Assembly (NCBI RefSeq): GCF_900104035.1
Contig: NZ_FNIT01000003.1
Location: forward strand, 62,001-126,000
Source of the DNA: Aureimonas jatrophae
GTDB taxonomy: Bacteria; Pseudomonadota; Alphaproteobacteria; Rhizobiales; Rhizobiaceae
DNA: 64,000 bases
Direction: 5' to 3'
This document shows positions 18,347-57,750 of this stretch, one piece after another. Every line of letters starts with the position of its first letter. Position 1 is the first letter of the stretch. The position numbers and the translations under genes were made by a program. The notes beneath the pieces are model-generated. The model worked only from the letters and a program-made list of their open reading frames with translations, made no database searches and was not told the DNA's origin.

Positions 18347-18628
18347 TCAGGCGGCCTTAGCCGCACGCAGCTCGTCGATCTTTGCGACGAGGTTCTTCAT
18401 GACGAAGTATTCTTCGGTGCTGGCCTGACCGTCGTTGACGCGCTGCGTCCAGGTTTCCAGCGGGATCTTGATGCCGAACTCCTTGTCGATCGCAAAGACG
18501 ATATCCAGAAAGTCGAGGGAATCGATGCCGAGGTCGTCGATCGTATGGCTCTCGGGCGTGATCTGGCTGCGATCGATTTCGCTGGTTTCGGAGATGATGT
18601 CGGCCACGCGGTCGAAGGTTGAAGACAA
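18347..18628 (-). CDS. acpXL: Acyl carrier protein AcpXL
   Basis: 93 residues, longer than housekeeping AcpP. The phosphopantetheine serine is S37 in [10 protein letters not shown], and the segment [14 protein letters not shown] is characteristic of AcpXL, the special carrier for the C28-type hydroxy fatty acid of rhizobial lipid A. It begins with TTG at 18628, supported by GAGG eight bases upstream and by the family N-terminus (xxTFDxVADII). It is the first gene of the minus-strand run to lpxXL and is divergent from dusA. Confidence 0.95.
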
Positions 18629-40287: not shown

Positions 40288-40470
40288 TAGGGGAGGGCTC
40301 CAAACAGGAGTTCCTGACATCCGGGAGCGGAGCGTCGACGTAGCCGAAGCGCGGGACGCTTGAGCCCGCCCGTTCCATGCGATAGGCCCTGCGCGGAAAC
40401 CGCCGGTCCGGGCCAGCAAGTCCGGTCGGCATCGCGCGGCTTGTCCGCTCATCCCGAGGTATTGCGACGA

Positions 40471-42113: not shown

Positions 42114-42117
42114 CCCG

Positions 42118-43002
42118 ATGCGCATTCTGGTCACCGGGCGCGAGGGACAGGTCGCTCAGGCGCTGGTCGCCTTGAATGGGAACAGCGCCGAGGTCGTCGC
42201 TGTCGGACGGCCCGATCTCGACATCACGCAGGCGCAGTCCGTCCGCGGTATCGTGGCGGAGCTGAAGCCCGATATCGTGGTCAACGCCGCTGCCTATACG
42301 GCCGTGGACCGAGCCGAGAGCGACGAGGCCTTGGCCTTCCTGGTGAACCGGGACGGCGCGCGCAACGTCGCAACCGTCGCTGTTGAGTATGGCCTTCCGG
42401 TCATCCACATCTCGACCGACTACGTGTTCGATGGCCTCGGCATGGAACGTTACCGGGAGGACGATCCGACCGGCCCGCAAGGGGTTTACGGCCGGTCGAA
42501 GCTCGAGGGTGAGCGCGCGGTTGCCGCGGCCAACCCCGCTCATGCGATCCTGCGCACCGCGTGGGTGTACGGACCGTTCGGGCAAAACTTCCTGAAGACG
42601 ATGCTACGACTGGCCGGCGACCGCGATGTCGTCCGTGTGGTTGGGGATCAGCACGGGACGCCGACCTACGCTCCCGATATCGCCGAGGGCATCCTGGCGG
42701 TCGCGCATCGGCTCCAAGCCCGAGATCCGAACGCGCAGGGAATCTTTCATATGGTCGCGGACGGAGAGACGACGTGGGCGGGGTTCGCTGAAGAGATCTT
42801 CGCTCGCTCCGCCGAGCGGGGCGGTCCGTCGGCGCAAGTCGAACCGATCAGCACCCGCGAGTATCCCACACCTGCCAAGCGGCCGGCCAACTCGCGGCTC
42901 GACACGGCTCGCTTCGTCCGTGATATCGGGCACCGGTTGCCGGACTGGCGCTCGGGGGTCGTTCGCTGCCTTGATGCCTTGGAGAGAGCGTCCGCACGAT
43001 GA
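42118..43002 (+). CDS. rfbD: dTDP-4-dehydrorhamnose reductase
   Basis: 294 residues. NADPH motif GREGQVAQAL, DYVFDG and the active-site YGRSKLEGE are typical of RmlD. Final reduction to dTDP-L-rhamnose. ATG at 42118, stop overlapping the RgpF-like gene. Confidence 0.95.
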   Translation: MRILVTGREGQVAQALVALNGNSAEVVAVGRPDLDITQAQSVRGIVAELKPDIVVNAAAYTAVDRAESDEALAFLVNRDGARNVATVAVEYGLPVIHISTDYVFDGLGMERYREDDPTGPQGVYGRSKLEGERAVAAANPAHAILRTAWVYGPFGQNFLKTMLRLAGDRDVVRVVGDQHGTPTYAPDIAEGILAVAHRLQARDPNAQGIFHMVADGETTWAGFAEEIFARSAERGGPSAQVEPISTREYPTPAKRPANSRLDTARFVRDIGHRLPDWRSGVVRCLDALERASAR

Positions 43003-43931
43003 CGGACCCCGGCGTGCCGGTCGTCATCGTCCACGTTCATTACGCGGACGTCTGGGCGGACATGGCGCGCGAGATCGCGACCGCCTTCGATCGACCATTC
43101 GGTCTCGTCATCACATGCCGCGATGATGGCATCGCGCTGGCCGAGGTTCGGTCGCCTCATCTGGTTTTTGCGCGTCGGCTCCGCACGGAAAATCGTGGTC
43201 GCGATGTTCTGCCGTTCCTGCACGCTTTACGTGAGATGGGCGATGGTTTCGAACTCGGACTGAAGCTCCATACCAAGCGTTCCAAACACCGGGCCGACGG
43301 TGAGGACTGGCGTCGGTACATGATGGACTCGCTTCTCGGCGGCGAGGGGGGCACGCCAGCCGCGCTGCGCCTGATGGAGCGTGACCATGAGTTGGGCCTG
43401 GTTGCACCGCTGGCGCATCTATTGCCGTTGGAAGGCCGGATCGCCCTCAACCGGCGTGCCATGCGCCGCGTTGCCGACCGGATGGATATCCCGCTCGACT
43501 TCGAGGAACTGACCCGGAAACGCTTCGCTGCCGGCTCCATGTTCTGGTTTCGGCGCAAGGCGTTGCGTCCCTTTGCTAAAACCGTACTCGACGACCTTTT
43601 TCCCAAGGAGAAGGGTCAGCTTGATGGAACGGCAGCCCATGCGGTGGAGAGGCTTTTCGCGCTCGTCTGCGAGCGCTCAGGCTACTGGGTTACGGCCGCC
43701 GAGGCTCTTCCGGATCTGCTGGCAGCTCCGCAGCTCGACGCGGCAACTCGGACGGCGCTCACCGAATCAGCGGTTGCCAGAACGTCCAACCCTTTCGCAC
43801 TGCCGATCAGCCGCTTCTGGGGACGGCACCCCTACCTTCTCCTGGCGGCGCACCATGCCTATGTGCGGACACCGCGGCCCGTCTGGCGCATTGCGCGCCA
43901 GCTCCTTCGACGCTTTACGCTCGACCGCTGA
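42999..43931 (+). CDS. RgpF-like rhamnan synthesis protein F family glycosyltransferase
   Basis: 310 residues. Contains the family lines VVIVHVHYADVWADM, ENRGRDVLPFLHAL, FELGLKLHTKRSKHR and a later GSMFWFRRKAL, as in rhamnosyltransferases and other proteins built on the RgpF domain. With dTDP-L-rhamnose genes directly upstream and ATGA coupling, it is probably a rhamnosyltransferase for an O-antigen, capsule or similar glycan. Ends inside the stop region of the convergent aminotransferase gene (17 bases shared). Confidence 0.82.
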   Translation: MTDPGVPVVIVHVHYADVWADMAREIATAFDRPFGLVITCRDDGIALAEVRSPHLVFARRLRTENRGRDVLPFLHALREMGDGFELGLKLHTKRSKHRADGEDWRRYMMDSLLGGEGGTPAALRLMERDHELGLVAPLAHLLPLEGRIALNRRAMRRVADRMDIPLDFEELTRKRFAAGSMFWFRRKALRPFAKTVLDDLFPKEKGQLDGTAAHAVERLFALVCERSGYWVTAAEALPDLLAAPQLDAATRTALTESAVARTSNPFALPISRFWGRHPYLLLAAHHAYVRTPRPVWRIARQLLRRFTLDR

Positions 43932-45090
43932 TCGGCGTCTCAGCCACCGCGCGGTTGAGGACGTCGAGCGACTCACGAACTGCATCGATGATGCGATCCT
44001 GTGTGGCTTCGTCGAGATACGCGTGCATCGGCAGGCTGACGACGTCCCGGCACAAAGCCTCCGTCACCGGCAGCCCGTTGCCGCCGACCGGCCAATGACG
44101 GTAGGCCGTCTGCTGATGCAGGCCCTTGCCGTAGTAGATGACGGTGGGAACGCCGCGTTCTCGCATCGCAACTGTGAACGTGTCGCGTTGGCCGCCCGGA
44201 ATGCGGACGGTGTACTGCGCCCACGTCGAAACGACGTTGTCATCGATCGTCTGTGGCAGGACGAGCCCATCCAGACGCTCGTGGTAGCGCCGGGCGATAC
44301 GTGTGCGGGCTTCGATCTCGTCCGGGAAAATCGCGAGCTTCTCGACCAGTACGGCTGCCTGGAACGTATCGAGCCGTGCCGTCAGACCCAGACGCACGTT
44401 GTCGTACTTGTCGGTGCCCTGACCATGAATGCGAATCGATCGCAGGATCGCGGCAAGGTCGGCGTCGTCGGTCTGCATCGCTCCGCCGTCACCCCAGCAG
44501 CCCAGCGGCTTCGCCGGATAAAAACTGGTGGCGACCACATCGGCGAAGGCGCCGGCCTGCCGACCATCGCGTGTCGAACCGAAACCCTGGGCCGCATCCG
44601 AAATCAACTTCAGCCCGAACTCATCCGCGACGGCCCGGATCGGTGCATAGTCCGCGATTTGTCCGAACAGGTCGACGGCGATGATGGCCCGCGGCACAAG
44701 CTCGCCACGCCGCACGATCTCTTCGACACTTTGGCGAAGATGGGCGGGATCGAGGTTGAAGGTCCCGGGCAGGACATCGACAAAGACAGGCGTCGCACCG
44801 ACGAGACCCACGACCTCCGCGGTCGCCGCGAAGGTGAAGCTCGGCACGAAGACCGCGTCGCCCGCGCCGATGCCCCAAGCCATGAGCGGCATGACAAGTG
44901 CGTCCGTGCCCGAGCCGCAGGTGACGGTCTCGCGCGCGCCCGTGAACACGCCGAGCGCCGACTCGAGCTCAGCCACATCGGGACCCATGATGAAGGCGCC
45001 CTGATCCATGATTCGCCCAAGCCGCGCCTCGACGGCGGGACGCACGCGGTCGCGCTGCGTAGCAAGATCGATGAACGGGATCGGGGTCAT
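43915..45090 (-). CDS. DegT/DnrJ/EryC1-family sugar aminotransferase
   Basis: 391 residues. PLP-dependent aminotransferase of nucleotide-linked keto sugars. The PLP lysine is in TSFYPAKPLGCWGDGGA, the nucleotide-sugar site includes GSGTDALVMPL, and the usual FxDLATQRDRVRPAVE start is present. Could aminate a UDP-3-keto-hexuronic acid (WlbE/WbpE) or a dTDP-keto-6-deoxyhexose; the neighbouring rfbB would supply the precursor of the latter. ATG at 45090 with GGAG upstream. Downstream of the GT4 gene on the same strand. Confidence 0.9.
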   Translation of the reverse strand: MTPIPFIDLATQRDRVRPAVEARLGRIMDQGAFIMGPDVAELESALGVFTGARETVTCGSGTDALVMPLMAWGIGAGDAVFVPSFTFAATAEVVGLVGATPVFVDVLPGTFNLDPAHLRQSVEEIVRRGELVPRAIIAVDLFGQIADYAPIRAVADEFGLKLISDAAQGFGSTRDGRQAGAFADVVATSFYPAKPLGCWGDGGAMQTDDADLAAILRSIRIHGQGTDKYDNVRLGLTARLDTFQAAVLVEKLAIFPDEIEARTRIARRYHERLDGLVLPQTIDDNVVSTWAQYTVRIPGGQRDTFTVAMRERGVPTVIYYGKGLHQQTAYRHWPVGGNGLPVTEALCRDVVSLPMHAYLDEATQDRIIDAVRESLDVLNRAVAETPISGRA

Positions 45091-45173
45091 GGGCGGAGGC
45101 TCCGGACGCGGCAGTTTCGGCAAGGGCTATCGGTTTCGGGTGCGAAAGCAACCCGTTGCCGTTACCGGGCCGT

Positions 45174-46340
45174 TCACGATTGGCGCGTTGTCCGCCAGTC
45201 TTCGTGAGCGTCCAGCCGATCCTCGAGCAGTTCCTTGTAGAGCACTGAGAGCGCCGCCATGACGTCTCGCTCGGTGTATCCATCTCGAACGCGCTCGGCC
45301 GCAGCGGCGCCCATCCGGTGGACGAGTTCCCGTGAGGCCGCCAACCGCTCGATGGCGGCCGCCAGTCCCTCGATGTCGTCCACCGGACGAACGAAGCCGT
45401 CGAGGCCATCGCGTACGAACGAGCGACAGCCGGGAACATCGGTGGTCAGGTTGAGCCGACCGCATGCCGCGGACTCGAGCAGCGTGCGCGGAAGGCCCTC
45501 GCCGCCGCGAGAGGGCAGGATCGCCGCGTCGTGCGTTGCCCAGACCGAGACGACATCGCGCGTTGCGCCATGAAAGCGAACGCCGGGGCGTCGGCCCCAC
45601 TCCTCAAGCGTCGTTTGGGCGATCGAGCGTGGATTGGAGGGATCAGGCGCCCCGTAGAGGTCGAGTTCGACGTCGACTCCCTTCCGACGTGCGAGCGATA
45701 CGGCCTCAACCGCGGTATCGACGCCTTTCGACCAAAGCATGCGCGAAACCAGCGCAAGGCGAAGCGGCCCGTCGCCCAGCGGCGACTGAACGGGCAGGGC
45801 ATCCGGGTCTATGCCCGCCCCACCGACGAAACGGCAGTTCTTGTCTGCTGGGTCGAAACCCAGCACGAGAGGGTCATCACGATTCTCGAATAGGAAGACC
45901 GTTCGCGACGATCTCAACGGGCCACGCAACAAGGTCCGGAGTATCAAACGGCCGAGCCTTCCCTTCGCGTCGCGTCGAGCCCCGATGAGGCCCAGGCCCG
46001 TCGGTGCGAAGACGCGGCGCTCGATGCCCGCCGCGCGAGCCGCCGCGCCGCCTGTCAGGATCGACTTCAACGCGATGCAATGCACGAGATCGGGCTTTTC
46101 GGTCACCAGGACGTTGCGCATGGTGCGAACGGTGCGAAGCAAGGCGTGAGGGTTGAGACTTCGTCGCTCCGCTTCCACCGCCCGAACACGAGCGCCGGTT
46201 GCCTCGATGATCGCGGCATGGTCCCGAACACGCGTCACGACCATGACATCCAGCCCCATCTCGCGCGCAGCGCGTGCCATGGGCAGGAAGTGCGAGGCGA
46301 AGAACCAGTCCTCGGTGACGACAAAGGCAATCTTGGGCAT
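45174..46340 (-). CDS. Family 4 glycosyltransferase (PglA-like)
   Basis: 388 residues, GT-B fold. N-terminal FVVTEDWFFASHFLPMARAA and MRNVLVTEKPDLVHCIALK, and the C-terminal donor-binding EX7E region LPSRGGEGLPRTLLESAACG. Resembles GT4 enzymes that transfer HexNAc-type sugars to lipid-linked acceptors. With the aminotransferase gene 83 bases downstream it forms a small glycan pair. ATG at 46340. Confidence 0.9.
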   Translation of the reverse strand: MPKIAFVVTEDWFFASHFLPMARAAREMGLDVMVVTRVRDHAAIIEATGARVRAVEAERRSLNPHALLRTVRTMRNVLVTEKPDLVHCIALKSILTGGAAARAAGIERRVFAPTGLGLIGARRDAKGRLGRLILRTLLRGPLRSSRTVFLFENRDDPLVLGFDPADKNCRFVGGAGIDPDALPVQSPLGDGPLRLALVSRMLWSKGVDTAVEAVSLARRKGVDVELDLYGAPDPSNPRSIAQTTLEEWGRRPGVRFHGATRDVVSVWATHDAAILPSRGGEGLPRTLLESAACGRLNLTTDVPGCRSFVRDGLDGFVRPVDDIEGLAAAIERLAASRELVHRMGAAAAERVRDGYTERDVMAALSVLYKELLEDRLDAHEDWRTTRQS

Positions 46341-46430
46341 GGTGGCGTGTATCGATGCTGACGCGTGACCCCGCAAGGGTCTTGTCGCGCCAGCGGTCTC
46401 TGCCTCACACGCGAGGTGAGGCTGTCCTCC

Positions 46431-46934
46431 TCAACCTGCTGTTTCCGCGAGCTCGATGGCCCGCGTTCCGGTTAGGTCGCGTTGGCAGATCAGCGTGGCC
46501 GACGTCCGGATCGTGCCGTCCTTCCAGTAGGCGAAAACGCGGTCGCACTCGGCATCGCGATAGGCGATCCAAGCGCGCTGAGCGCTCTTGAGCGTGGAAA
46601 CGATGTCGGTTTCGTAGTTGGCGGAGAGTTCGCGATCCTTCTCTTCAGCTGCCTTCAGGGCAGCCTGATAGTTGCGGTTGAGGATCGTGTCCCACGCCGC
46701 TCGTTCGGTCTCGAGACAGGCGTCGGTCGCCATCGTGGACACCGCGCCCGGAAGCGCCATGCAGCTCTCCGTTGCCTTGCCAAGGCAGCTCCGCGGCTCG
46801 TCACCAGCTGCCGCGATGCAGCTTTCGACGCTCCGCAACGTCTCGGCTTCGCTGGGACCGAAGTCCTGCGCAACGGCGAGCGGGCTCAAACCAAGTAGGA
46901 CGAGAAGGGAGAGGAATGCGACGCGCGTCGCCAT
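46431..46934 (-). CDS. LprI-like lysozyme inhibitor (DUF1311) protein
   Basis: 167 residues. Signal peptide to about residue 22 (PLAVAQ), then a four-cysteine DUF1311 domain: ESCIAAAGDEPRSC, CMALPG, CLETERAAWD and ECDRVFAYWKDGT. The family includes LprI, a lysozyme inhibitor of mycobacteria. Periplasmic. Its start is 76 bases from the divergent tspO gene. Confidence 0.85.
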   Translation of the reverse strand: MATRVAFLSLLVLLGLSPLAVAQDFGPSEAETLRSVESCIAAAGDEPRSCLGKATESCMALPGAVSTMATDACLETERAAWDTILNRNYQAALKAAEEKDRELSANYETDIVSTLKSAQRAWIAYRDAECDRVFAYWKDGTIRTSATLICQRDLTGTRAIELAETAG

Positions 46935-47010
46935 GGCGGGTTGGTTCCTTCGTAGAGCCGGACTAAACGAACGGAACGCTATCCTTCCGTTTGGTCGGGG
47001 ACAATCTGCC

Positions 47011-47469
47011 GTGTCGCTTCTTGCGTTCCTTGTTTTATCGGCGGCCGTCGCCTCGACCGGCATCATCTTCAAACCGGGTGTCTGGTATCGGGGTCTGAAG
47101 AAGCCTGCCTGGACACCGCCGAACCGCGCGTTCCCGATCGTCTGGTCGATCCTCTACATCCTGATCGCGATCAGTGGGTGGCTCGTCTGGCGACAGCAGG
47201 GGTTGAGCTGGCCGTTTCTGATCTTCGCTGCGCAACTCGTCGCTAATCTCCTGTGGTCCTGGCTCTTCTTCGGACGGCGTCGCCCGGACCTGGCGTTCGC
47301 AGATATCGTCGTGCTCTGGATCTTGGTGGCCGCCAACATTGCGGCATTCGCCCCGATCAGCGCGACGGCAGCCTGGTTGCTCGTGCCGTATCTCGTTTGG
47401 GTGAGCGTTGCGGTGGCGCTCAATCTTTCGGTATGGCGCCTCAATCGAGATCGCGGGGTCTTCGCCTGA
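47011..47469 (+). CDS. tspO: TspO/MBR family tryptophan-rich sensory protein
   Basis: 152 residues, five membrane helices. LKKPAWTPPNRAFPIVWSIL and NLLWSWLFFGRRRPDLAF are TspO landmarks; the protein binds tetrapyrroles or cholesterol-like ligands in the membrane. The start is a GTG at 47011 with GGGG upstream, giving the usual short N-terminus; an ATG at 46933 would overlap the divergent LprI-like gene and add a soluble leader. Regulatory role in oxygen or porphyrin response in other alphaproteobacteria. Confidence 0.88.
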   Translation: MSLLAFLVLSAAVASTGIIFKPGVWYRGLKKPAWTPPNRAFPIVWSILYILIAISGWLVWRQQGLSWPFLIFAAQLVANLLWSWLFFGRRRPDLAFADIVVLWILVAANIAAFAPISATAAWLLVPYLVWVSVAVALNLSVWRLNRDRGVFA

Positions 47470-47543
47470 CCGCGCCGCTTGACGCCTCTGGTCGCGTCCG
47501 TCACACCCCCGGCGCCGCGCACGGCGCGAAAGGGAACCCCGAC

Positions 47544-48308
47544 ATGAGCTTTGCCATCTACCCGAGCCTTGAGGGACGTTCCGTGTTCGTCACCGGCGGT
47601 GCGTCGGGGATCGGTGCCGACATCGTCCGCGCGTTTGCCGCGCAAGGCTCGCGCGTCGGCTTTGTTGATCTGGACGAAGCCCGGGCCACGGCACTCGTCA
47701 ATGAAATCGAGGCGACCGGGAAGGGCATGGTCGCCTTCGAGCCTTGCGACCTGCGCGATATCGACGCCTTGCGCGATGCCCTCGGTCGGTTGCGTGAGCG
47801 CGTGGGACCGGCCGATGTTCTCGTCAACAACGCCGCCCGTGACGATCGCCACGGATGGCAGGACGTCACGCCCGACTACTACGATGAGCGCATCGCCACG
47901 AATCTGAGACACATGTTCTTCGCGACCCAAGCGGTTGCCCCGGACATGATCGCCCGTAACCGCGGCTCGATCGTCAATCTCGGTTCGAACTCCTGGTGGG
48001 AGGCCGGCGGCGGTATGCCCGTCTACACGACGGCCAAGGCGGCCGTTCACGGCATGACGCGCTCGTTCGCACGCGATCTCGGACCGCATCGTATCCGCGT
48101 TAACACCGTGGTGCCGGGTTGGGTGATGACCGAGCGACAGAAGGAGCTTTGGGTAACGCCCGAAGCTCTCGACCGGACATTGGCTCGCCAGTGCATTCCA
48201 GTACCGATCGAGCCTGTGTATCTCGCGCGGATGGTTCTGTTCCTGGCGTCCGACGATGCCGCCATGTGCACGGCCAACAACTACATGGTGGAAGCGGGCT
48301 CGATCTGA
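47544..48308 (+). CDS. XylB-like sugar 1-dehydrogenase (classical SDR)
   Basis: 254 residues. NAD motif TGGASGIGAD, catalytic NLGSNSWWEAG and YTTAK. Many positions match, as I recall it, the D-xylose 1-dehydrogenase of Caulobacter: AIYPSLEG start, DDRHGWQDVT, YYDERIATNLRHM and LARMVLFLASDDAAMCT. It would oxidise a pentose to its lactone in the Weimberg-type route. No lactonase, dehydratase or aldehyde dehydrogenase of that pathway is beside it. ATG at 47544. Confidence 0.85.
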   Translation: MSFAIYPSLEGRSVFVTGGASGIGADIVRAFAAQGSRVGFVDLDEARATALVNEIEATGKGMVAFEPCDLRDIDALRDALGRLRERVGPADVLVNNAARDDRHGWQDVTPDYYDERIATNLRHMFFATQAVAPDMIARNRGSIVNLGSNSWWEAGGGMPVYTTAKAAVHGMTRSFARDLGPHRIRVNTVVPGWVMTERQKELWVTPEALDRTLARQCIPVPIEPVYLARMVLFLASDDAAMCTANNYMVEAGSI

Positions 48309-48369
48309 CCGCGGTCGGCCTTCTCCCGGCTGCTGTCGTGTCTTCGCTACCGGACACCGCACCGATCCG

Positions 48370-48397
48370 CTAAGGCGAACCGTTCGTTCCGCCTTAG
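48370..48397 (+). promoter_or_regulatory. Hairpin before purU
   Basis: Stem of eight perfect pairs (CTAAGGCG with CGCCTTAG) extended by a GAAC/GTTC segment with one bulge, ending 18 bases before the purU GTG. No T run follows. May be the end of the dehydrogenase transcript or a leader structure. Confidence 0.45.
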
Positions 48398-48415
48398 CCA
48401 GGGAGCCGCACGCCC

Positions 48416-49282
48416 GTGCCCACGCCCGAAGACTTCATTCTATCCCTGTCATGCCCGAACCGTCCGGGTATCGTCGCGGCCGTATCACGGCACCTGTTCG
48501 ACAACGGGGCCGACATTCGTGAGGCGGCTCAGTTCGATGATCCCGAGACGGGACGCTTCTTCATGCGCGTGCGCTTTGCCATCGTTCAGGCGGTGGTGAC
48601 GGTGGATAGTCTGACCAAGGGCTTCGAAACCATCGCAGACCGTTTCGGGATGGATTGGCGTGTCTCATCGAGCGCGAAACGGCAGAAGGTGCTGATTCTC
48701 GTCTCACGCTTCGATCATTGCCTGGCCGATCTTCTCTACCGGTGGCGGATCGGCGAGTTGGCCATGGACATCGTCGGCATCGCGGCGAACTACCCGCGCG
48801 AGACCTACGGGCACCACGATTTCGACGGCATCCCCTTTCATTACCTTCCGGTGACGCGCGACACGAAGCGTGAGCAGGAGGCCCGCATTCTCGCGATCGT
48901 CGAGGAAACGGGTGCCGACCTCGTCGTTCTCGCTCGTTACATGCAGATTCTGTCGGACGAGATGTCCGCGGCACTGTCGGGTCGCTGCATCAATATCCAC
49001 CATTCCTTCCTGCCGGGCTTCAAGGGTGCCAAGCCCTATCACCAGGCCCATCTGCGAGGCGTGAAGTTGATTGGCGCAACCGCTCACTATGTCACGGCCG
49101 ATCTCGATGAGGGGCCGATCATTGAGCAGGATGTCGAGCGCATCTCGCATCAGGATGCGCCCGACGACCTCGTCCGCAAGGGGCGCGATATCGAACGACG
49201 GGTCCTGTCGCGAGCGATCGCATGGCATCTCGATAATCGCGTTATCCTGAACGGCGACAAGACCGTCGTCTTCCGCGACTGA
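48416..49282 (+). CDS. purU: Formyltetrahydrofolate deformylase
   Basis: 288 residues. An N-terminal ACT domain ([21 protein letters not shown]) and a C-terminal formyltransferase-type domain with [20 protein letters not shown] and [17 protein letters not shown]. Releases formate from 10-formyl-THF, balancing one-carbon units and purine formate supply. GTG start at 48416. Its stop is 41 bases before the CtrA-type box of minC. Confidence 0.95.
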
Positions 49283-49323
49283 TCCGCAACGGTTCCCTTT
49301 CGGCGCCCACCATCGGGTACGAA

Positions 49324-49338
49324 TTAACCCTCGGTTAA
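49324..49338 (+). promoter_or_regulatory. CtrA-type binding site upstream of minC
   Basis: TTAA, seven bases, TTAA at 49324-49338: an exact match to the CtrA half-site spacing, 40 bases before the minC ATG. In Sinorhizobium CtrA is reported to repress min genes. Confidence 0.65.
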
Positions 49339-49378
49339 GCCTGAGGGTGTTCAGTCGGTCATCAACGAAGCCTTAACG

Positions 49379-50122
49379 ATGATGACCGAAACCTTAACCT
49401 CCCGTAAAGCGGTCCGCCTGCGTGGTCGCTCCTTCCTGGCTCTGGTGCTGTCGCCGGAACTTCCGTTCCGCGACTGGCTGGCCCAGCTGGACGATCTCGC
49501 GCGGCGATCCACCGGCTTCTTCCTAGGCCGTCCGATCGTTCTGGACGTGAGCGGCCTACCGATCACCCGTGAGCAGCTGGCTGATCTGCTGGCTGAACTT
49601 ACGAAGCGGAACGTCCGCGTCATGGGCATCGAAGGTGCCCTGCCGTCGATCCTCGGACCCGGCATGCCGCCTGAGATGAAGGGCGGGCGCAACGCACCCG
49701 ACATCGAGGTACCGGAAGCGAACGCCGCGCCAGCAGCCGCGAAGCCTGCAACCGACACCGTACAGGCGCGCTTTGCGATGCCGGCGCCGACGCCCTCGCT
49801 GCTGATCGAGACACCTGTCCGCTCCGGTCAGTCGATCATCTTCCCGGAAGGCGATGTCACGATTCTCGGCTCGATCTCGTCGGGCGCCGAGGTGATCGCT
49901 GGGGGCTCGATCCATGTGTACGGCGCCCTGCGTGGGCGCGCGCTCGCCGGATCCAGCGGCAACGAGAACGCGCGCATCTTCTGCCGCAAGCTTGAGGCCG
50001 AACTCATCGCCATCGACGGTCTCTACAAGACCGCCGAGGACATCGATCCCAAGGTTTTCGGACAGCCGGTGCACGCCTGGCTGGACGACACCGTTCTGAA
50101 GACCGTGGTCCTGCCCGCATGA
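49379..50122 (+). CDS. minC: Septum site-determining protein MinC
   Basis: 247 residues. N-terminal FtsZ-interacting domain (PEL/FRDWLAQ region) and a C-terminal beta-helix from about residue 140 with VRSGQSIIFPEGDVTILGSI, SGAEVIAGGSIHVYGALRG and CRKLEAELIAIDG. Blocks Z-ring formation away from mid-cell with MinD. ATG at 49379 (49382 also possible). First gene of the minCDE run and probably under CtrA control. Confidence 0.95.
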   Translation: MMTETLTSRKAVRLRGRSFLALVLSPELPFRDWLAQLDDLARRSTGFFLGRPIVLDVSGLPITREQLADLLAELTKRNVRVMGIEGALPSILGPGMPPEMKGGRNAPDIEVPEANAAPAAAKPATDTVQARFAMPAPTPSLLIETPVRSGQSIIFPEGDVTILGSISSGAEVIAGGSIHVYGALRGRALAGSSGNENARIFCRKLEAELIAIDGLYKTAEDIDPKVFGQPVHAWLDDTVLKTVVLPA

Positions 50123-50200
50123 TGCGGCGGAGGATACGCGGCGTGCAACTCAGGCAGCCCGAGCGTCTGGGCCTCGACAACAAGGGAAGGAATGGCCTCC

Positions 50201-51019
50201 ATGGCTGAAGTGATGGTTGTGACATCGGGCAAGGGAGGCGTCGGCAAGACGACCTCGACCGCAGCATTGGGTGCGGCGTTGGCCCAGGCCGGCCAGAAGG
50301 TCGTCGTGGTCGACTTTGACGTCGGACTGCGCAATCTCGACCTCGTCATGGGTGCCGAGCGTCGCGTCGTGTATGACCTCATCAACGTCGTGCAGGGCGA
50401 TGCCAATCTGAATCAGGCGCTGATCCGCGACAAGCGCGTCGACACGCTGTGCCTGCTGCCGGCCTCCCAGACCCGCGACAAGGACAACCTCACGCAGGAC
50501 GGCGTCGACCGTGTGATGGATCAACTCCGCGCGCAGTTCGACTGGGTCATCTGCGACAGCCCGGCCGGGATCGAGCGCGGTGCGACTCTCGCCATGCGCC
50601 ACGCCGATCTCGCGGTTGTCGTCACCAACCCGGAGGTCTCCTCCGTGCGCGACTCGGACCGCATCATCGGCCTGCTCGACTCGAAGACTCTGCGTGCCGA
50701 AAGCGGCAACCGTATCGAGAAGCACCTGCTTCTCACACGCTACGACGCCGCGCGGGCCGAGCGTGGCGACATGCTGAAGATCGACGACGTTCTCGAGATC
50801 CTGTCGATCCCGCTGCTCGGGATCGTCCCGGAGAGCCCGGAAGTGCTGCGCGCGTCGAACCTGGGGACGCCGGTGACCCTGAGCGACGCGCAGAGCGCGC
50901 CCGCACGTGCCTATGCCGACGCAGCCCGCCGTCTGATGGGTCAGACCATTCCGATGACCGTGCCGGCCGATCGCAGCAAGGGACTCCTTAACAAGTTCTT
51001 CGGCCGGAGGGCTGCATGA
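50201..51019 (+). CDS. minD: Septum site-determining protein MinD
   Basis: 272 residues. Deviant Walker A KGGVGKTT at 11-18, switch [17 protein letters not shown], and a C-terminal membrane-targeting helix GLLNKFFGR. ATPase that recruits MinC to the membrane and is driven by MinE. ATG at 50201 gives correct spacing to GGAAGG; ATG at 50192 adds three residues. Overlaps minE (ATGA). Confidence 0.96.
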
Positions 51020-51294
51020 ACCTTTTCAACCTTTTCCAGAAGCGGTCCGCCGCTTCGTCCAGTGCGCCGGCAGCGCGCGAACGCCTTCAGGTACTGCTCG
51101 CCCATGAACGAGCGGAGATCGGTCAGGCGGATCTCGTATCGGTCCTGCGCGAGGAGATCCTCGCGGTCATCGCCAAGCACGTTCCCGTGAATCGGGACAA
51201 GGTGAAGGTGAAGATGGATCGCGGCGATCAGATCTCGATGCTCGAGGTCGATATCGAGCTGCCGCAGATCGCAGGCGCGGCTCTCGCCCATTAG
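51016..51294 (+). CDS. minE: Cell division topological specificity factor MinE
   Basis: 92 residues. N-terminal MinD-interacting segment ([15 protein letters not shown]) and C-terminal topological domain with [21 protein letters not shown]. Sets oscillation of MinCD. Coupled to minD. Confidence 0.95.
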
Positions 51295-51377
51295 CCATCG
51301 GCGGCGTCTTGACGCCGCCGTCGTCGTGCCGCTTGGGCGATCTCCCACCCGGCGGCGCCTTTCCCAAGGAGAAGCAT

Positions 51378-51542
51378 ATGAGCCGAGCCGAACTCCTGGT
51401 CCGCCTTCAGCGCGTGCAGGACATGCCGCAGATGCAGGGTCGCAACATTCGCTCCGTCGCGGCCATCCTGTCGATCGACGCGCTTCAGAAGCATGTCGAA
51501 GTCTGCGAGGCGCAAGCCGAGAAGGCGGCCCTCAAGCAGTAG
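51378..51542 (+). CDS. Small hypothetical protein after minE
   Basis: 54 residues, MSRAELLVRLQRVQDMPQMQ onward, mostly helical and charged, no membrane segment or known domain. A strong ribosome binding site AAGGAG lies seven bases before the ATG and a strong terminator follows, so it is probably real. It lies 83 bases after minE in the same direction and may be transcribed with it. Function unknown. Confidence 0.7.
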   Translation: MSRAELLVRLQRVQDMPQMQGRNIRSVAAILSIDALQKHVEVCEAQAEKAALKQ

Positions 51543-51561
51543 GAAACCCAGACCCCGTGAG

Positions 51562-51601
51562 AAGGGCCGCCGCTTCCCGGCAGGAAGCGGCGGCCCTTTT
51601 T
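51562..51601 (+). terminator. Strong intrinsic terminator after the minCDE region
   Basis: Sixteen-base stem (51562-51577 with 51583-51598), five-base loop, then a T run to 51601. Ends the min transcript and also separates it from the convergent osmoprotectant gene. Confidence 0.95.
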
Positions 51602-51618
51602 GATGAAGCGTCGACGCT

Positions 51619-52533
51619 TTAGCGCAAAAGGTTGTTGCTGGTCAGGAAGTCCTCCGCGACCGCCCGCGCGGGTTCACCGCCCACCTGCACGCGACCGTTC
51701 AGATCTTGCAGCGTTTCAAGATCCAGCTTCTCGAAGATCGGCTTCAAGACGTCGGCGATCTTCGGGTTGGCCTGCAGAACCGCTTCGCGCACGATCGGGG
51801 TCGGCTGGTAGATCGGCTGAACGTTCTTGTCGTCATCGAGGACCTTAAGGCCGGATGGCGCGATGCCGCCGTCGGTCCCATAGACCATAGCGGTGTTGAC
51901 ACCGCTCGTTCCTTGCGCCGCCGCAGCGATGGTCGCCGCCGTGTCGCCGCCTGACAGCGTCAGCAGCTGCTCGGGCTTCAGCGTGAACTGGTAGGTCGTC
52001 TGGAATGCGGGCAGAGCGGAGGGCGAGTTGACGAACTCGGCTGAGGCAGCGAGCTTGGCGTCGCCCCCACCTGCGACCCAGCGCCCGAAATCGCTCAGCG
52101 ACGTCAGCTTGTTCGCTGTCGCGACGTCGTCGCGAACCGCCATGCCCCAGGTGTTGTTGGCGCTTGCGGGCGTCAACCAGACGATCTTGTTGGCCTCGTA
52201 GTCGAGCTTCTTGGCTTCTTCATAAGCGGCCGCCGCGTCCTTCCAGATCGGAGCGTCCGCCTTGTTGAAAAAGAATGCCGCGTTGCCCGTGTACTCGGGA
52301 TAGATATCGATTTCACCGGCCGTGATCGCCTGACGCATCACGGGCGTGCCGCCGAGTTGCAGGCGGTCCGTTGTCTCGATTCCGGCGTTCTGGAGGGCCA
52401 GCAACATGATGTTGCCGATGACGCCGCCTTCCGTATCAATCTTCGAGGAAACGACCACAGGCGCCGCGAATGCGGACCCAGCGAGCAGGACGCCCGTCAG
52501 GGCGGCTGAGAGGAAGGTTGGCAAACGCGGCAC
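51619..52533 (-). CDS. Osmoprotectant (glycine betaine/choline-type) ABC binding protein, orphan
   Basis: 304 residues. Signal peptide to about residue 23 (AFAA), then a ProX/OsmF-type binding domain: VVSSKIDTEGGVIGNIM, EIDIYPEYTGNAAFFF, and VNSPSALPAFQTTYQF. Ligand pocket aromatics point to a quaternary amine. GTG start at 52533 has AGGAG eight bases upstream. No permease or ATPase lies beside it, so it either feeds a distant transporter or its operon is split. Confidence 0.88.
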   Translation of the reverse strand: MPRLPTFLSAALTGVLLAGSAFAAPVVVSSKIDTEGGVIGNIMLLALQNAGIETTDRLQLGGTPVMRQAITAGEIDIYPEYTGNAAFFFNKADAPIWKDAAAAYEEAKKLDYEANKIVWLTPASANNTWGMAVRDDVATANKLTSLSDFGRWVAGGGDAKLAASAEFVNSPSALPAFQTTYQFTLKPEQLLTLSGGDTAATIAAAAQGTSGVNTAMVYGTDGGIAPSGLKVLDDDKNVQPIYQPTPIVREAVLQANPKIADVLKPIFEKLDLETLQDLNGRVQVGGEPARAVAEDFLTSNNLLR

Positions 52534-52755
52534 GAGCGATCTCCTGAGATTGAATCGACGCTATGATGTCGATCCAGAGGCGGCAATCCTGCGTTAATCC
52601 ACTAATTTCGCAAGGCGTTTTTGCCGATTCGACGCGTGCGGCGACAGGACGTGGAAGGCGAAACGTCGAATTCGTTAAATTTCTTTGAACTTCAAGGGAA
52701 CCAACTTCACGTTCGTTCGTATCACGAGCTTGCGGCAACAAGCTGGGGGACGGTG

Positions 52756-52932
52756 ATGACCGCTTCCGAAATCGTGACGGCCTTCGAGGCTGGCTTCATC
52801 ACGGAAAACGAGGCTACGGAGCAGGGGATGGTGGAGACGCTCGACGATCTCTACTCGCGTCTCTCGCGCGAGCGGACCTACCGTTCGCATGCCTCCAGCC
52901 GACATGGCGATCTGCAGCGCCGCCACGGCTAG
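52756..52932 (+). CDS. Small hypothetical protein
   Basis: 58 residues, beginning MTASEIVTAFEAGFITENEA, polar with a basic tail. A G-rich ribosome-binding stretch lies before the ATG, and an AT-rich region (52585-52700) with promoter-like sequence precedes it. No domain recognised; coding is likely but not certain. Confidence 0.5.
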   Translation: MTASEIVTAFEAGFITENEATEQGMVETLDDLYSRLSRERTYRSHASSRHGDLQRRHG

Positions 52933-53032
52933 GTTTCACGGCAGGGTCGCGTTGCTGGCGGCTTGATCGAGCGCGGCGTTACTCATAACCACGGCATCAG
53001 GAATTTCCTCCCGTGCCGGATTGTGGGCCTGT

Positions 53033-53767
53033 ATGACCGTCTTGTCCGTCAATGTGAATGCGGTGGCGATGCTGCGCAATCGTCGCGATTTGCCATGGCC
53101 CGACCTCACCCATATCGGTCGCCTTGCCTTGCAGGCAGGGGCTGGAGGACTGACGGTTCATCCTCGGCCTGATCAGCGTCACGTGCGTTTCACGGACCTT
53201 CCGATGCTGCGCGAACTCATCGACGAGTTTCCGGGCGCGGAGTTCAACATCGAAGGTTATCCGACCGAGCAGTTCCTGCTGTTGTGCGAGGATGCGCGGG
53301 CGGATCAGGTCACGCTGGTCCCGGACGATCCATCGCAGGCCACATCGGATCACGGCTGGGATTTTGCAGCGTCGCGTTCCTTGCTGGCGCCGATCATTGA
53401 TCGCCTGCGTGCTCGAGGCATCCGAGTTTCGCTGTTCGCTGATCCTTCGCCCATCGGCCTTGATCTGATCGCGGATTTGGGAGCTGAGCGGATCGAGCTT
53501 TATACCGGCCCGTACGGCGCGACCTATGCGAATGCCGAGGCGCGACGTCGCGAGCTCGAGCGGCTTCGCGAAACCGCCGAACGGGCGTTCGCGCTCGGAC
53601 TGGATACGAACGCTGGCCACGACCTGACTGTCGAAAATCTGCCCGCTTTGAAGCAGGCCGTGCCGCGTCTCGCAGAAGTCTCGATAGGCCACGCCTTGAC
53701 GGCCGACGCGCTGGAGTTCGGCATGGAGGAGACGGTTCGTCGCTTCCACGCGGCCTTGGCGTCGTGA
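53033..53767 (+). CDS. pdxJ: Pyridoxine 5'-phosphate synthase
   Basis: 244 residues, TIM barrel of the DXP-dependent vitamin B6 pathway. [15 protein letters not shown] at the start, [24 protein letters not shown] and a C-terminal [20 protein letters not shown] match PdxJ, including the conserved His and Glu residues. The stop overlaps the start of the CysC-type gene (GTGA), an odd partner for a B6 gene. Confidence 0.95.
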
Positions 53768-55242
53768 CCCAAGCTCGACGCCTGCATGTCACCGTCGTCG
53801 GCGACGGGCGGGGGATTGAGAGCGCCCTTGACGCCTGTGTCGTGGTACCAGCCTCCGAGGTAAACGAGGACCGTACGGCTGATTGCGTCATCCTCCTCTC
53901 GCCGACGCTCCCGGACATCGCGGCAGCGCGGCGGCTGGCATCGTCCGGAGCGCCGACCGCGGTGCTCATCGACGATGCAGCAGCCAGTAGGAATCAGGAC
54001 TTAGCTGGCTTGGGGTTCCGGGACGTCCGATATGCGACGGTTGCGTCGCTGCCGACCATATTGGCGCAGATCGCGGCAGCCAACACGTCCGGACGCCTGC
54101 GTGCGATCGTTCGAGCGGCTGACTCCGGAACGCAGTTCGAGGTCGTCGTGGCGAGCGGAAGCGTGCGGCAAGACGATCTGATCTGCGAAGCACGAGATGG
54201 CCTTGAGGCTCGCGTCGAGAGCGTGGTTGATCTGGGCGAGGGCTCTGTGCGGATCCAACTCGACCGCGCGATCCGCTGTGACGTCGGCGATCTTCTCTGC
54301 CACCCATCCGAGCGACCCGAGGTTGCCGATCAGTTCTCGGCGCGGCTGACCTGGCATGACGGGCATCCGCTGATCGCGGGCCGCTCCTACCGGTTCGTGG
54401 TCGGCGAAAAGATCGTGGCCGGCAGCGTCACCACGATCAAGCACCGCATCGAACCCGACATGGCGGGACCGCTTGCCGCCCGCACCCTGCAAAGGGGTGA
54501 AACCGGATCCGTGAACATCTCGCTGCGCCGACCAGTCGCGTTCGACCTGTCCGAGGGTAGCGGACAGCTGCGCCGCCTTCGTGTGCTGGACGCAGTGAAC
54601 GATCTGAAGCTCGGTACCGGTACGCTCAGTTTCGCGTTGCGACGGGCGTCCAACATCCATTGGCAAAGTGTCACGGTCTCCAAGACGCAGCGTGCTGCGA
54701 TCAAGCAACAGAAGCCCGTGCTGGTGTGGTTCACCGGATTGTCCGGATCGGGCAAGTCGACCATCGCCAATCTGCTCGAGTCCCGCCTGCTGGCGGAGGG
54801 CTGCCACACCTACCTTCTCGATGGTGACAACGTCAGGCACGGTCTCAACCGGGATCTCGGGTTCACCGACGCCGACCGCGTCGAGAACATCCGGCGTGTC
54901 GGTGAGATCGCGAAGTTGATGGTGGATGCGGGATTGATCGTTCTAGCATCGTTCATCTCTCCGTTCGAGGCCGAACGAGCGCTGGCACGGGAACTGCTCG
55001 GCGAGGGGGAGTTCGTCGAGGTGTTCGTCGATGCGCCGCTCGCCGTCGCCGAGGAGCGGGATCCCAAGGGGCTCTATCGACGGGCTCGTCGTGGCGAGTT
55101 GCGCAACTTCACGGGCATCGACAGCCCCTACGAGCGTCCCGGCAACCCTGAGATCCGGCTCGATACCGCGACGACACCGGCCGAAGCGCTGGCACAGCAA
55201 GTCTTCGACTACCTGGCGAAACGCGGGCATCTCGCGTTGTAG
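53764..55242 (+). CDS. APS kinase (CysC) fused to CysN barrel domains with a reduced, P-loop-less GTPase-like N-terminus
   Basis: 492 residues. Residues about 325-485 are a full adenylylsulfate kinase: P-loop GLSGSGKST near 324-332, [11 protein letters not shown], and [13 protein letters not shown], making PAPS from APS. Residues about 112-320 match domains II and III of CysN, including RPVAFD and [12 protein letters not shown] just before the kinase, as in bifunctional CysNC/NodQ. But the N-terminal ~110 residues replace a GTPase of about 230 residues: TADCVILL and [10 protein letters not shown] look like surviving strands, while the P-loop position reads [12 protein letters not shown] without GK(S/T). 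GTP use is therefore unlikely. Possibly supplies PAPS for glycan sulfation; the next genes are for polysaccharide export. Confidence 0.85.
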
Positions 55243-55316
55243 GCGCCGGTAGCGCATTCCGGCGGCTGCCGATATAAGCCGACCGAACCGCAATCGGATC
55301 AGGAAGCGTCGGAGAC

Positions 55317-56183
55317 ATGAAGGGTATCGTACTGGCCGGTGGCAGCGGGACGCGGTTGCATCCCATGACCTTGACCGCGTCGAAGCAACTGCTGCCGGTC
55401 TACGACAAGCCGATGATCTACTATCCGCTGACGACGCTCATGCTCGCCGGTGTTCGCGACATCCTGATCATTTCCACCCCTCACGACCTCCCGCGCTTCC
55501 GGGACCTTCTGGGTTCGGGCGAAGATTGGGGCGTTCGCTTCACCTATGCCGAGCAGCCAAGCCCCGATGGCCTGGCACAGGCCTACCTGATCGGCGAAGA
55601 GTTCGTTGCGGGCGAGAGTTCCGTGCTGATCCTCGGCGACAACCTGTTCTACGGTCACGGTCTGCCGGAGCTTCTGTCGCGAGCCGCGGATCGTCCGACT
55701 GGTGCCAGCGTCTTCGCCTACCATGTCGCCGATCCGGAGCGTTACGGCATCGTCGCCTTCGACAAGGATGGACGCGCGCTGTCGATCGAGGAGAAGCCTG
55801 AGAAGCCGGCCTCGAGCTGGGCGGTTACAGGGCTCTACTTCTATGACGGTCGGGCCTCGACCCTGGCCCGGAGCCTCAAGCCATCGCCTCGCGGCGAGCT
55901 CGAGATCACGGATCTGAACCGTATCTATCTCGAAGAAGGCAGCCTCAACGTCGAGACGATGGGCCGAGGCTTCGCCTGGCTCGACACGGGAACGCCCGAC
56001 TCCCTTCTCGAGGCTGCGGAGTTCGTGCGGACGCTGGAACACCGCCAGGGTTTCAAGATCGCCTGTCCCGAGGAGGTCGCGTTCCAGAAGGGTTTCATCG
56101 ACGCTCAGCAGCTTCTGTTGCTCGGCAAGCGTTTGGGGAAGAGCACCTACGGCCGCTACCTCCAGCGGATCGCGGAGAACTGA
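55317..56183 (+). CDS. rfbA: Glucose-1-phosphate thymidylyltransferase
   Basis: 288 residues. N-terminal [31 protein letters not shown] and [14 protein letters not shown] are RmlA signatures. Makes dTDP-glucose, first step to dTDP-L-rhamnose; the remaining enzymes RfbC, RfbB and RfbD lie at 40.5-43 kb. ATG at 55317. Followed after two bases by the exporter permease, so probably co-transcribed. Confidence 0.96.
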
Positions 56184-56185
56184 CA

Positions 56186-56983
56186 ATGAATCGGCGTGCC
56201 CGGCTCGCAGCCGGTTTGGCGGACCTGCGAGCCGGTGTCCGGCGGCGCGAGCTCTGGCTCTATCTCGGCTGGCGCGACGTCCAGAAGCATTATCGTCGTT
56301 CGGTGCTGGGTCCGTTCTGGCTGACGCTGTCCATGGGCATCATGGTGGCGGGGCTCGGGGTCCTTTATTCGCAGATCTTCAACATGGAGATCGCGACGTA
56401 TTTGCCCTTCCTGGCCCTCGGATTCATCCTTTGGGGACTGATCGGAACATCGATCACCAACGCCTGTACGGTGTTCACGTCCGCAGCGAGTTCTGTCCGG
56501 CAGATCCATATGCCGCTGAGCATCTACGTGTTCCAGTTCGCCTGGTCGCAGCTGATCACCTTCGCCCATAATTTCGTCATCTATATCGCGGTCGCGCTCA
56601 TCTTCTCGATCAAGCCGTCGTGGACGACGCTTCTGGTGTTTCCGGCAATCGCCCTGTTCACGCTGAACGCGATCTTCTGCGCCATGATCCTCGGACCGCT
56701 CTGCGCAAGGTTCCGCGACATTCCGCTGATCGTCGCCAGCTTGATCCAGGTCGCGTTCTTCATGACGCCGGTTCTTTGGAGCGCGGAGCAGATCCCGCAG
56801 CGCGCTCACTTCGTGAACCTCAACCCGTTCTATCATTTCATCGAGATCGCCCGCGAACCGCTTCTTGGCGAGCCGATCAGCCTCCTGCACTGGCTCGTGG
56901 CGCTCGTCCTGACCGCGAGCCTCGGAACGGTTTCTTTCCTCTTCTACGCGCGCTTTCGCTCGCGCGTTGCCTATTGGGCCTGA
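56186..56983 (+). CDS. Polysaccharide ABC exporter permease (Wzm/KpsM family)
   Basis: 265 residues, six membrane helices. RRSVLGPFWLTLSMGIMVAGL and the C-terminal LNPFYHFIEIAREPLLG are typical of ABC-2 O-antigen and capsule export permeases. Forms the channel with the ATPase that follows six bases later. The cargo is likely an O-antigen or other surface glycan containing rhamnose. Confidence 0.92.
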   Translation: MNRRARLAAGLADLRAGVRRRELWLYLGWRDVQKHYRRSVLGPFWLTLSMGIMVAGLGVLYSQIFNMEIATYLPFLALGFILWGLIGTSITNACTVFTSAASSVRQIHMPLSIYVFQFAWSQLITFAHNFVIYIAVALIFSIKPSWTTLLVFPAIALFTLNAIFCAMILGPLCARFRDIPLIVASLIQVAFFMTPVLWSAEQIPQRAHFVNLNPFYHFIEIAREPLLGEPISLLHWLVALVLTASLGTVSFLFYARFRSRVAYWA

Positions 56984-56988
56984 CGAGC

Positions 56989-57750
56989 ATGGCAAGCGTT
57001 CTCTTCGAGGATGTCGTCGTCGATATCCCGATCTTCGACGCGAGCAGCCGTTCGCTGAAGAACAATGTCCTGGCAGCCGCGACAGGGGGGCAGATCCGAC
57101 CGCGGGAAGGGCGTGGCAAGGTGTCGATCCGGGCCATAGACCGCATGTCGCTGCAGTTCGACCACGGCGAGCGGATCGGTTTGATCGGGCATAACGGTGC
57201 CGGAAAGTCGACGATTCTACGCGTCATCTCGGGCATCTACGAGCCGACAGGCGGACGCGTGAGCGTCGAGGGCGATGTCGCGGCCATGTTCGACATCGGG
57301 TTCGGCATGGATCCGGAGGCGACCGGATGGGAGAACATCACCCTACGGGGGATGCTTCTGGGTTATTCGCGCCGTGAGATCGAGCGGCGGGCTCCGCAGA
57401 TCGCGGCCGAGACGGGGCTCGGCGAGTTCCTCGACATGCCGCTGCGAACCTATAGCGCCGGCATGGCGACCCGCCTGGCCTTTGCGGTCTCGACGTCGAT
57501 TCGTCCCGAGATCCTTCTGATCGATGAGGGCATCGGCGCCGGCGATGCGGCCTTCATCGAGCAGGCTCAGCAACGCCTGCGAACCTTCATCGGTGAAGCC
57601 GGGCTTCTCGTCATGGCGTCGCATTCCAACTCGTTGCTGCGCGAATGGTGCCGGACCGGGCTCTGGTTGGAGCATGGGCGCATTCGTATGCGCGGTGCCA
57701 TATCCGAGGTCATCTCGGCCTATGAGGCGCACGTCGCCGCATCCGCTTGA
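56989..57750 (+). CDS. Polysaccharide ABC exporter ATPase (Wzt/KpsT family, short form)
   Basis: 253 residues. Walker A GHNGAGKST at 67-75, ATPase signature YSAGMATRLAFAV, Walker B EILLIDEGIGAGD and switch His in MASHSN. The first 45 residues (DVVVDIPIFDASSRSLKNN) are typical of Wzt. It lacks the C-terminal carbohydrate-binding domain of long Wzt proteins, so recognition of a terminal cap is unlikely, and export may be coupled to chain growth. ATG at 56989. Confidence 0.92.
   Translation: MASVLFEDVVVDIPIFDASSRSLKNNVLAAATGGQIRPREGRGKVSIRAIDRMSLQFDHGERIGLIGHNGAGKSTILRVISGIYEPTGGRVSVEGDVAAMFDIGFGMDPEATGWENITLRGMLLGYSRREIERRAPQIAAETGLGEFLDMPLRTYSAGMATRLAFAVSTSIRPEILLIDEGIGAGDAAFIEQAQQRLRTFIGEAGLLVMASHSNSLLREWCRTGLWLEHGRIRMRGAISEVISAYEAHVAASA

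Follow-up and report, generated by a model that had tools for sequence, protein, structure and literature searches.

A CysNC-derived protein with intact APS kinase motifs and an eroded CysN part in Aureimonas

The window analyzed here, a stretch of 64 kb from Aureimonas jatrophae, encodes a protein that a sequence-only reading had taken for a relic of CysNC, in which an APS kinase and CysN beta barrels follow a shrunken GTPase part. The locus raises the question of whether such a protein is an artefact, a decaying enzyme, or an enzyme with a role of its own, and which step of sulfate activation it may still serve.

Domain architecture and genomic neighborhood of the window gene

Profile and structure comparisons supported the reading as a CysNC relic (Table 1). 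The Pfam family APS_kinase (PF01583) matched residues 318-467 with an E value of 3.5e-67 (score of 225.6 against a cut-off of 21.1), and the APS kinase model TIGR00455 scored 254.8 bits, above its cut-off of 138.7. All six motifs checked, drawn from what we take to be the P-loop and substrate motifs of APS kinases, were present, namely, GLSGSGKST at 325, [10 protein letters not shown] at 353, [12 protein letters not shown] at 367, SFISPF at 396, DPKGLY at 433, and FTGIDSPYE at 449. As had been read from the letters, these intact motifs stand behind CysN barrel domains II and III. The EF1A-C-like domain III family (PF22594) matched residues 190-274 (E 2e-8; 35 bits against a cut-off of 27), the NCBIfam CysNC profile NF004035 aligned its positions 258-630 (of 632) with residues 124-488, and the CysN structure 1zun_B aligned with residues 125-276. 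These matches indicate that both barrels and the kinase are present, and that the GTPase part of the CysNC profile is unmatched. The total scores were 391.7 bits for NF004035 and 67.2 bits for the CysN model TIGR02034, under the respective cut-offs of 715 and 336.1. Pfam GTP_EFTU_D2 had no match in the window protein, and the assignment of domain II is based on the NF004035 and 1zun_B alignments.

Table 1. Coordinates of the eroded CysNC gene, its protein regions and the adjoining genes in the window
Feature	Coordinates	Strand	Basis or remark
Eroded CysNC, whole gene (492 aa; APS kinase plus CysN remnant)	53764..55242	+	ORF list, Pfam and NCBIfam profiles
Residues 1-112, remnant at the G-domain position, without P-loop	53764..54099	+	Boundary set in this study; predicted beta-alpha alternation
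Residues 113-188, CysN domain II (beta barrel), strongly diverged	54100..54327	+	Boundary set in this study; NF004035 from residue 124, 1zun_B 125-276
Residues 189-292, CysN domain III (beta barrel), moderately conserved	54328..54639	+	Boundary set in this study; PF22594 190-274
Residues 293-492, APS kinase domain, P-loop GLSGSGKST at 325 and [43 protein letters not shown] motifs	54640..55242	+	PF01583, TIGR00455
pdxJ	53021..53767	+	Stop overlaps the GTG start of the eroded CysNC gene, likewise in AU4
rmlA/rfbA, glucose-1-phosphate thymidylyltransferase	55317..56183	+	TIGR01207, above cut-off
ABC-2 polysaccharide export permease, Wzm type	56186..56983	+	NF050109, below cut-off
ABC polysaccharide export ATPase, Wzt type	57010..57750	+	NF050108, below cut-off

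According to alignment-based boundaries, 112 residues precede domain II in the window protein, whereas L128-L131, the intact relatives within the genus, have about 255. In agreement with the earlier reading, this shortened part contains no P-loop: none was found in frame ahead of domain II, and no CysN-type P-loop occurred in the three coding-strand frames over the 900 nt upstream of domain II, part of which is occupied by pdxJ. Residues 1-113 were without any Pfam match at an E value of 0.01. The weak traces of a G domain that had been claimed for the first 110 residues did not reach significance. Aligned with hhalign, the N-termini of the window protein and its counterpart in Aureimonas sp. 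AU4 gave E values of 0.51 against intact G domains and of 0.11 against the degenerate G domains of sister proteins. Shuffled sequences equaled the real scores against the intact and degenerate profiles in 54 and 93 of 500 cases, respectively, for the window N-terminus and in 89 and 133 of 500 for that of AU4; since shuffling yields such scores, the traces are not evidence of ancestry.

The AlphaFold2 model of the window protein, computed from 14 aligned sequences, had a pLDDT of 80.7 and a pTM of 0.76, with residues 297-304 and, in the kinase, 355-364 under a pLDDT of 50. Ahead of the barrels it predicts strand 8-12, helix 30-35, strand 41-45, helix 49-62, strand 65-69, helix 73-81, strand 88-91, and helix 96-108, a beta-alpha layer that would fit a G domain devoid of edge strands 2 and 3, the P-loop helix, and the switches. 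With intact CysNC as 10 of the 14 aligned sequences, this model is biased in its N-terminal part, and a single-sequence model of the N-terminal piece (pLDDT 59) kept the pattern only in part. The best Foldseek match of the full model was 1zun_B (E 2.3e-20), with 393 alignment columns against a chain of 394 residues. Considering their position, the sister proteins and tree described below, and the predicted fold, residues 1-112 appear to descend from the CysN G domain.

The overlap between the pdxJ stop codon and the GTG start codon suggests translational coupling. About 10 kb from the window gene lie genes for a dTDP-sugar isomerase, an NDP-sugar dehydratase, an RgpF-like protein, and a glycosyltransferase. 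AU4 carries its own copy (L003) with the same layout and 66% identity over residues 1-490, placed in the same order of pdxJ, gene, and rfbA, with export ABC genes downstream and an identical start/stop overlap. Locus L118 (genome G212) had match figures equal to those of L003.

Several other features of the window were recorded. A small frame before pdxJ (52621-52932, + strand) had only weak Pfam matches, and its last ~50 residues seem, by eye, to be repeated in AU4 (L003, ~6990-7170). On the minus strand, positions 13740-18628 hold frames that read like a lipid A acyltransferase, two ketosynthases, and an acyl carrier protein, a set that resembles very-long-chain fatty acid lipid A loci. The third-position GC content of the called genes in 40360-57750 ranged from 0.66 to 0.86, as compared with 0.84-0.94 around the cysH, cysD, and cysN genes on contig C4 of the same genome; other window genes are also low, and this may be a regional trait.

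Eroded CysNC proteins in Aureimonas and other Rhizobiaceae

In the family search, 143 of 199 genomes matched, and loci were classified from among the matches listed. Because erosion is invisible from the length of the open frame (882 aa in L022), only retrieved loci were classified, and the number of eroded genes outside the genus is a lower bound. The starts of the eroded proteins were picked by us from ATG and GTG codons, and some rows of alignments A3 and A5 start upstream of the true gene start. In the genus sample of 21 genomes, 12 matched at an E value of 1e-10 or better; eroded CysNC was present in 11 of the 21, and the match in G209 covered the kinase part only. Four of the 11 genomes (G205, G208, G210, and G211) additionally contain an intact CysNC.

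The 11 Aureimonas forms comprise seven with a degenerate G domain, two with a short remnant, and two with none. By alignment-based boundaries, ~150-190 residues precede domain II in the first group (L017, L022, L093, L121, L122, L124, and L125), whereas L119 and L126 begin at most about 20 residues from domain II. The profile of the seven degenerate proteins and L153 matched intact G domains with an hhalign probability of 98.5 and an E value of 3.9e-15 over 135 columns. None of the seven has a P-loop. In the alignment of the degenerate G domains, the P-loop is replaced or missing, a deletion extends from there toward switch II, and the DTPGHE and NKxD motifs are replaced. Across the order, raw matches to the degenerate profile occurred in 372 of 397 genomes, and the profile thus does not separate eroded from intact proteins.

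Eroded forms were also found outside the genus. L153 (G065; 1501-3165, + strand), from another Rhizobiaceae genus, is a CysNC whose G domain is degenerate and whose neighbor is a CysQ-like gene, and L206 and L207, from two genomes of one genus (G034 and G132), consist of CysN domain III and the APS kinase, with neither G domain nor domain II (336 aa in L206). The sequence-only reading knew of no described protein with such a layout. Our searches of open-licence PMC papers likewise turned up no description of a CysNC without GTPase, but the layout is not unique, as its relatives form a graded series.

Other loci were considered and not counted as eroded. L154 (G057) is a probable frameshift, with an intact P-loop in its N-terminal frame and the rest in another frame, and in L043 a P-loop was found in another frame. 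L155, L157, L208, L209, L004, L008, and L061 are all cut off by a contig end; in L156, a base directly before the match is unread (X in the translation); and the matches of L127, L158, and L159 are confined to the kinase part. The short rows G086:C115, G107:C19, and G024:C1 were left out of the classification. Two neighborhoods may be mentioned here. L206 (1751-2761, - strand) and L207 lie behind a CysQ-like gene, with an NDP-sugar epimerase in the vicinity, as well as a frame without Pfam match that resembles an O-antigen ligase by eye. In L158 (genome G045; 751-2351), a kinase-only CysC frame directly follows a frame that looks by eye like a sulfotransferase.

To place these losses, trees were calculated from domains II, III, and kinase (75 rows) and, by the careful method, from domain III and kinase (70 rows); the latter includes L209 (G150) as a partial relative of L153. 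The 11 eroded Aureimonas proteins formed one group in both trees (99/98 in the domain III-kinase tree). L153 and the partial L209 were placed beside the intact CysNC of G004 (99/90), and L206/L207 formed a long branch that joins the tree at a weakly supported fork (86/47). For the 15 eroded rows of the domain III-kinase tree, three changes are needed, of which the starred branches force two, and a topology with a single change was seen in 0% of 200 bootstrap trees. An earlier AU test with 12 eroded rows did not reject a single clade (p 0.074). Taken together, these phylogenies make two or three separate losses likely, and two further Rhizobiaceae lineages seem to have eroded separately, one of them down to domain III and kinase.

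cysD, sulfur assimilation, and the use of PAPS

In all 69 intact CysNC loci with at least 900 nt of upstream sequence (a subset of the 101 intact loci), cysD was located immediately upstream on the same strand, as it was in four of four further intact Aureimonas loci (73 of 73 in total). No cysD was found in the retrieved stretch of any of the 14 eroded loci (the 11 from Aureimonas, L153, L206, and L207). For the window gene, the earlier statement that CysD is not adjacent extends to the whole 64-kb window, in which tblastn at an E value of 1e-10 detected neither a cysD-like nor a cysQ-like gene. The loci tested are thus split cleanly by upstream cysD, the intact ones being non-independent, as many are from Mesorhizobium and some represent the same genome in two collections; this split makes it possible to read from genomes that the CysN half depends on its partner. 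At an E value of 0.001, PF01507 had no match in G034, G132, G065, and G150, whereas G000 and 14 control genomes matched, which indicates that the four genomes have no CysD. A separate observation concerns L116 (4547-7991; C14:42663-43352 of its own genome), where a third PF01507 protein adjoins an SMC-like ATPase frame, the two resembling a DndC/DndD pair of DNA phosphorothioation.

A cysQ or CysQ-like gene was found directly upstream in 12 of the 14 eroded loci, the exceptions being the window and AU4. Its identity was confirmed by TIGR01331 in three Aureimonas loci and by PF00459 only in L153 and L206. The nine cysQ-linked Aureimonas loci all have a WbaP-like sugar-phosphate transferase in front. 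Linkage to cysQ is not special to eroded loci, since 37 of the 60 intact loci for which 1500 nt were available on either side had cysQ within 1 kb.

A search for a full cysDN elsewhere in the window genome returned cysH, cysD, and cysN together on contig C4. The CysH protein scored 248.6, over the APS-reductase cut-off of 235.3, and contains a CC...CAPC pattern, which we take to mark an iron-sulfur APS reductase. With a CysH of this type, cysteine synthesis should be independent of PAPS. A single match to PF01583, the window gene itself, was found in this genome.

A candidate consumer of PAPS is an Stf0-type sulfotransferase (C23:817950-818642; PF09037, E 1.6e-67), the only sulfotransferase detected in the window genome by four Pfam families (PF13469, PF00685, PF09037, and PF03567) and encoded on a different contig from the window gene. 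It scored 104 bits with the trehalose 2-sulfotransferase model, under the cut-off of 400. The Sinorhizobium meliloti LPS sulfotransferase LpsS has been assigned to the Stf0 family (PMC12445080). The tether between PAPS synthesis and a glycan sulfotransferase that the sequence-only reading raised as a possibility is hypothetical. The adjoining rmlA and Wzm/Wzt-type exporter genes, together with the nine sister loci that combine cysQ with a WbaP-like transferase, make a link of the window gene to polysaccharides plausible.

Among the 11 Aureimonas genomes in which an eroded CysNC was found, six (G202, G079, G207, G212, which is the counterpart of AU4, G213, and G214) had no match to the same four families; none of the control genomes for this search matched PF03567 or PF09037, though PF09037 matched G000. 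Four of the five eroded-gene genomes with sulfotransferase matches are those with an additional intact CysNC, and some of their sulfotransferases are encoded near the intact CysNC and not near the eroded gene. The six genomes may therefore employ other sulfotransferase families or use PAPS in another way. The eroded CysNC points to an unrecognized use of PAPS in Aureimonas, probably glycan sulfation.

Selection on the CysN part, function, and comparison with known systems

The regions of the eroded proteins differ largely in conservation. Between the window protein and AU4, identity rises from 39% (N-terminal part) over 48% (II) and 68% (III) to 89% (kinase), whereas intact CysNC pairs are far more even, as illustrated by L128-L129 (70, 76, 77, and 79%). 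The median distance ratios of eroded Aureimonas pairs were 5.31 for II/kinase and 3.33 for III/kinase (52 of 55 pairs; three with a kinase distance of 0.05 or less were dropped), as compared with 1.35 and 1.51 for intact pairs (91 of 91). In L121-L022, the eroded pair with dN/dS values (Nei-Gojobori) in all four regions, these decreased from 0.51 (N) to 0.32 (II), 0.22 (III), and 0.05 (kinase). For window-AU4 and several other pairs, differences by codon position take the place of dN/dS. In window-AU4, the ratio of changes at positions 1 and 2 over position 3 was 0.66 for N and 0.16 for the kinase; it dropped in the order N, II, III, kinase in four of five eroded pairs, whereas two intact pairs showed 0.07-0.19 in all regions. 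In every region of the open frame, third positions carry most of the change. As judged from these sequence comparisons, the kinase is under strong selection and the CysN part under weaker selection; the residual constraint on domain III, and to a lesser extent on II, means that the CysN part may not be purely vestigial.

We consider it probable that the window protein is an APS kinase descended from a CysNC/NodQ fusion and that it supplies PAPS for sulfation, with APS from the cysHDN genes on C4. In this scenario, the fusion would have lost its co-encoded CysD partner, and the CysN half, no longer serving a GTP-driven ATP sulfurylase, would have eroded from the N-terminus. P-loop and switches would have disappeared, leaving a remnant of ~110 residues and barrels II and III before the kinase. 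The separate assimilatory CysD-CysN encoded on C4 would supply APS, which the window protein, by its motifs a putative APS kinase, would phosphorylate to PAPS. As PAPS should be dispensable for cysteine, it would most likely feed the sulfation of surface polysaccharide or lipid through a sulfotransferase such as the Stf0-family protein on C23. The window protein presumably has neither GTPase nor sulfurylase activity; the order of events, the use of PAPS for sulfation, and its acceptor are those that we infer. What speaks against this explanation is above all the lack of matches to the four sulfotransferase families in six of the 11 Aureimonas genomes, and also that the window and AU4 loci are devoid of the cysQ present at the other 12 eroded loci.

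The same gradient bears on a different proposal, namely, that the CysN part has been retained as a scaffold, a pseudo-GTPase with a function, in which domain III, with II, sets dimerization, stability, or docking to a sulfotransferase or glycan assembly enzyme; the protein would then be repurposed, not dying. It accords with the presence of domain III in every eroded form classified, even in L206 and L207 where G domain and domain II are gone, with the higher identity of III than of II and N in eroded pairs and the codon-position ratios of four of the five pairs, and with the occurrence of the eroded form in about half (11 of 21) of the genus sample. However, domain III is in any case the last CysN domain to go if erosion proceeds from the 5' end, the ratio of III in L119-L126 (0.65; kinase, 0.28) is no lower than that of II (0.62), N and II are far less constrained than the kinase, and kinase proteins without domain III occur in relatives. 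We therefore regard this proposal as improbable.

The suggestion that the protein may bind CysD-type partners fared worse. It would take the form of a GTP-independent, PAPS-synthesizing complex in which barrels II and III hold the CysD encoded on C4, and cysD is indeed present in the genome and the barrels persist in part. However, residues specific to EF-Tu/CysN that surround switch I and II lie next to the CysD contacts in the CysND complex (PMC5770160), and both switches are missing here; domain II is only 33-34% identical to that of two intact CysNC; none of the 14 eroded loci has a cysD beside it; the CysD on C4 is paired with a complete CysN of its own; and the eroded form is kept in the four genomes of other lineages that have no PF01507 match. 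The loss of both switches and the presence of a dedicated CysN make such a partnership quite unlikely. A pseudogene, frameshift, or assembly artefact, for which the lack of a recognizable domain in the N-terminal part could be cited, is barely credible, as AU4 shares architecture and synteny, no CysN-type P-loop lies in the three coding-strand frames over 900 nt upstream of domain II, the frame is open with change mostly at third positions in every region, and the kinase is 89% identical to that of AU4 with its motifs intact.

A broader and speculative generalization, on which we would not rely at present, is that a novel type of APS kinase arises from CysNC whenever CysD is lost, as has recurred, and that barrel III (with II and the pseudo-GTPase where present) would be a functional module for dimerization, docking, or PAPS channeling to a polysaccharide sulfotransferase. 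If true, an elongation-factor-like body would have been convergently repurposed as a kinase scaffold.

With CysNC/NodQ (NF004035), the window protein shares both barrels followed by the APS kinase, arranged alike, and its kinase is 69% and 71% identical to those of the intact CysNC L128 and L012; it differs in the absence of the P-loop, DTPGHE, the NKxD sequence, and an adjacent cysD. It has the checked motifs in common with CysC/APS kinases (TIGR00455, PF01583), but is longer by ~290 residues at the N-terminus, a stretch whose domains II and III derive from CysN. Stand-alone CysN (C4; 1ZUN chain B of Pseudomonas syringae) has a complete GTPase and no kinase. Another APS kinase fusion, the 500-aa "adenylyl-sulfate kinase" of PDB 23vk_A, also has its kinase at the C-terminus (325-498), and its N-terminal half did not match the first 317 residues of the window protein. 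The closest relatives are the nine sister eroded CysNC (L017 from A. flava, L022, L093, L119, L121, L122, L124, L125, and L126), which group with the window protein and AU4 and have no P-loop; seven have a longer degenerate G domain and two none, and all are cysQ-linked, unlike the window gene. The window protein is a genuine CysNC variant of a kind that seems to have arisen more than once, and the most fitting description is that of an APS kinase whose CysN body is eroding: the descendant of a two-step enzyme for the universal sulfate donor that lost its GTP-driven first half and kept the last step. The comparisons suggest that loss of the first half recurred, following loss of the neighboring partner gene. 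From full CysNC through degenerate G domain, remnant, and absence of the G domain to domain III plus kinase, the family offers a natural step-by-step dismantling of a GTPase-sulfurylase-kinase, and "bifunctional sulfurylase/kinase" is the wrong name for its eroded members.
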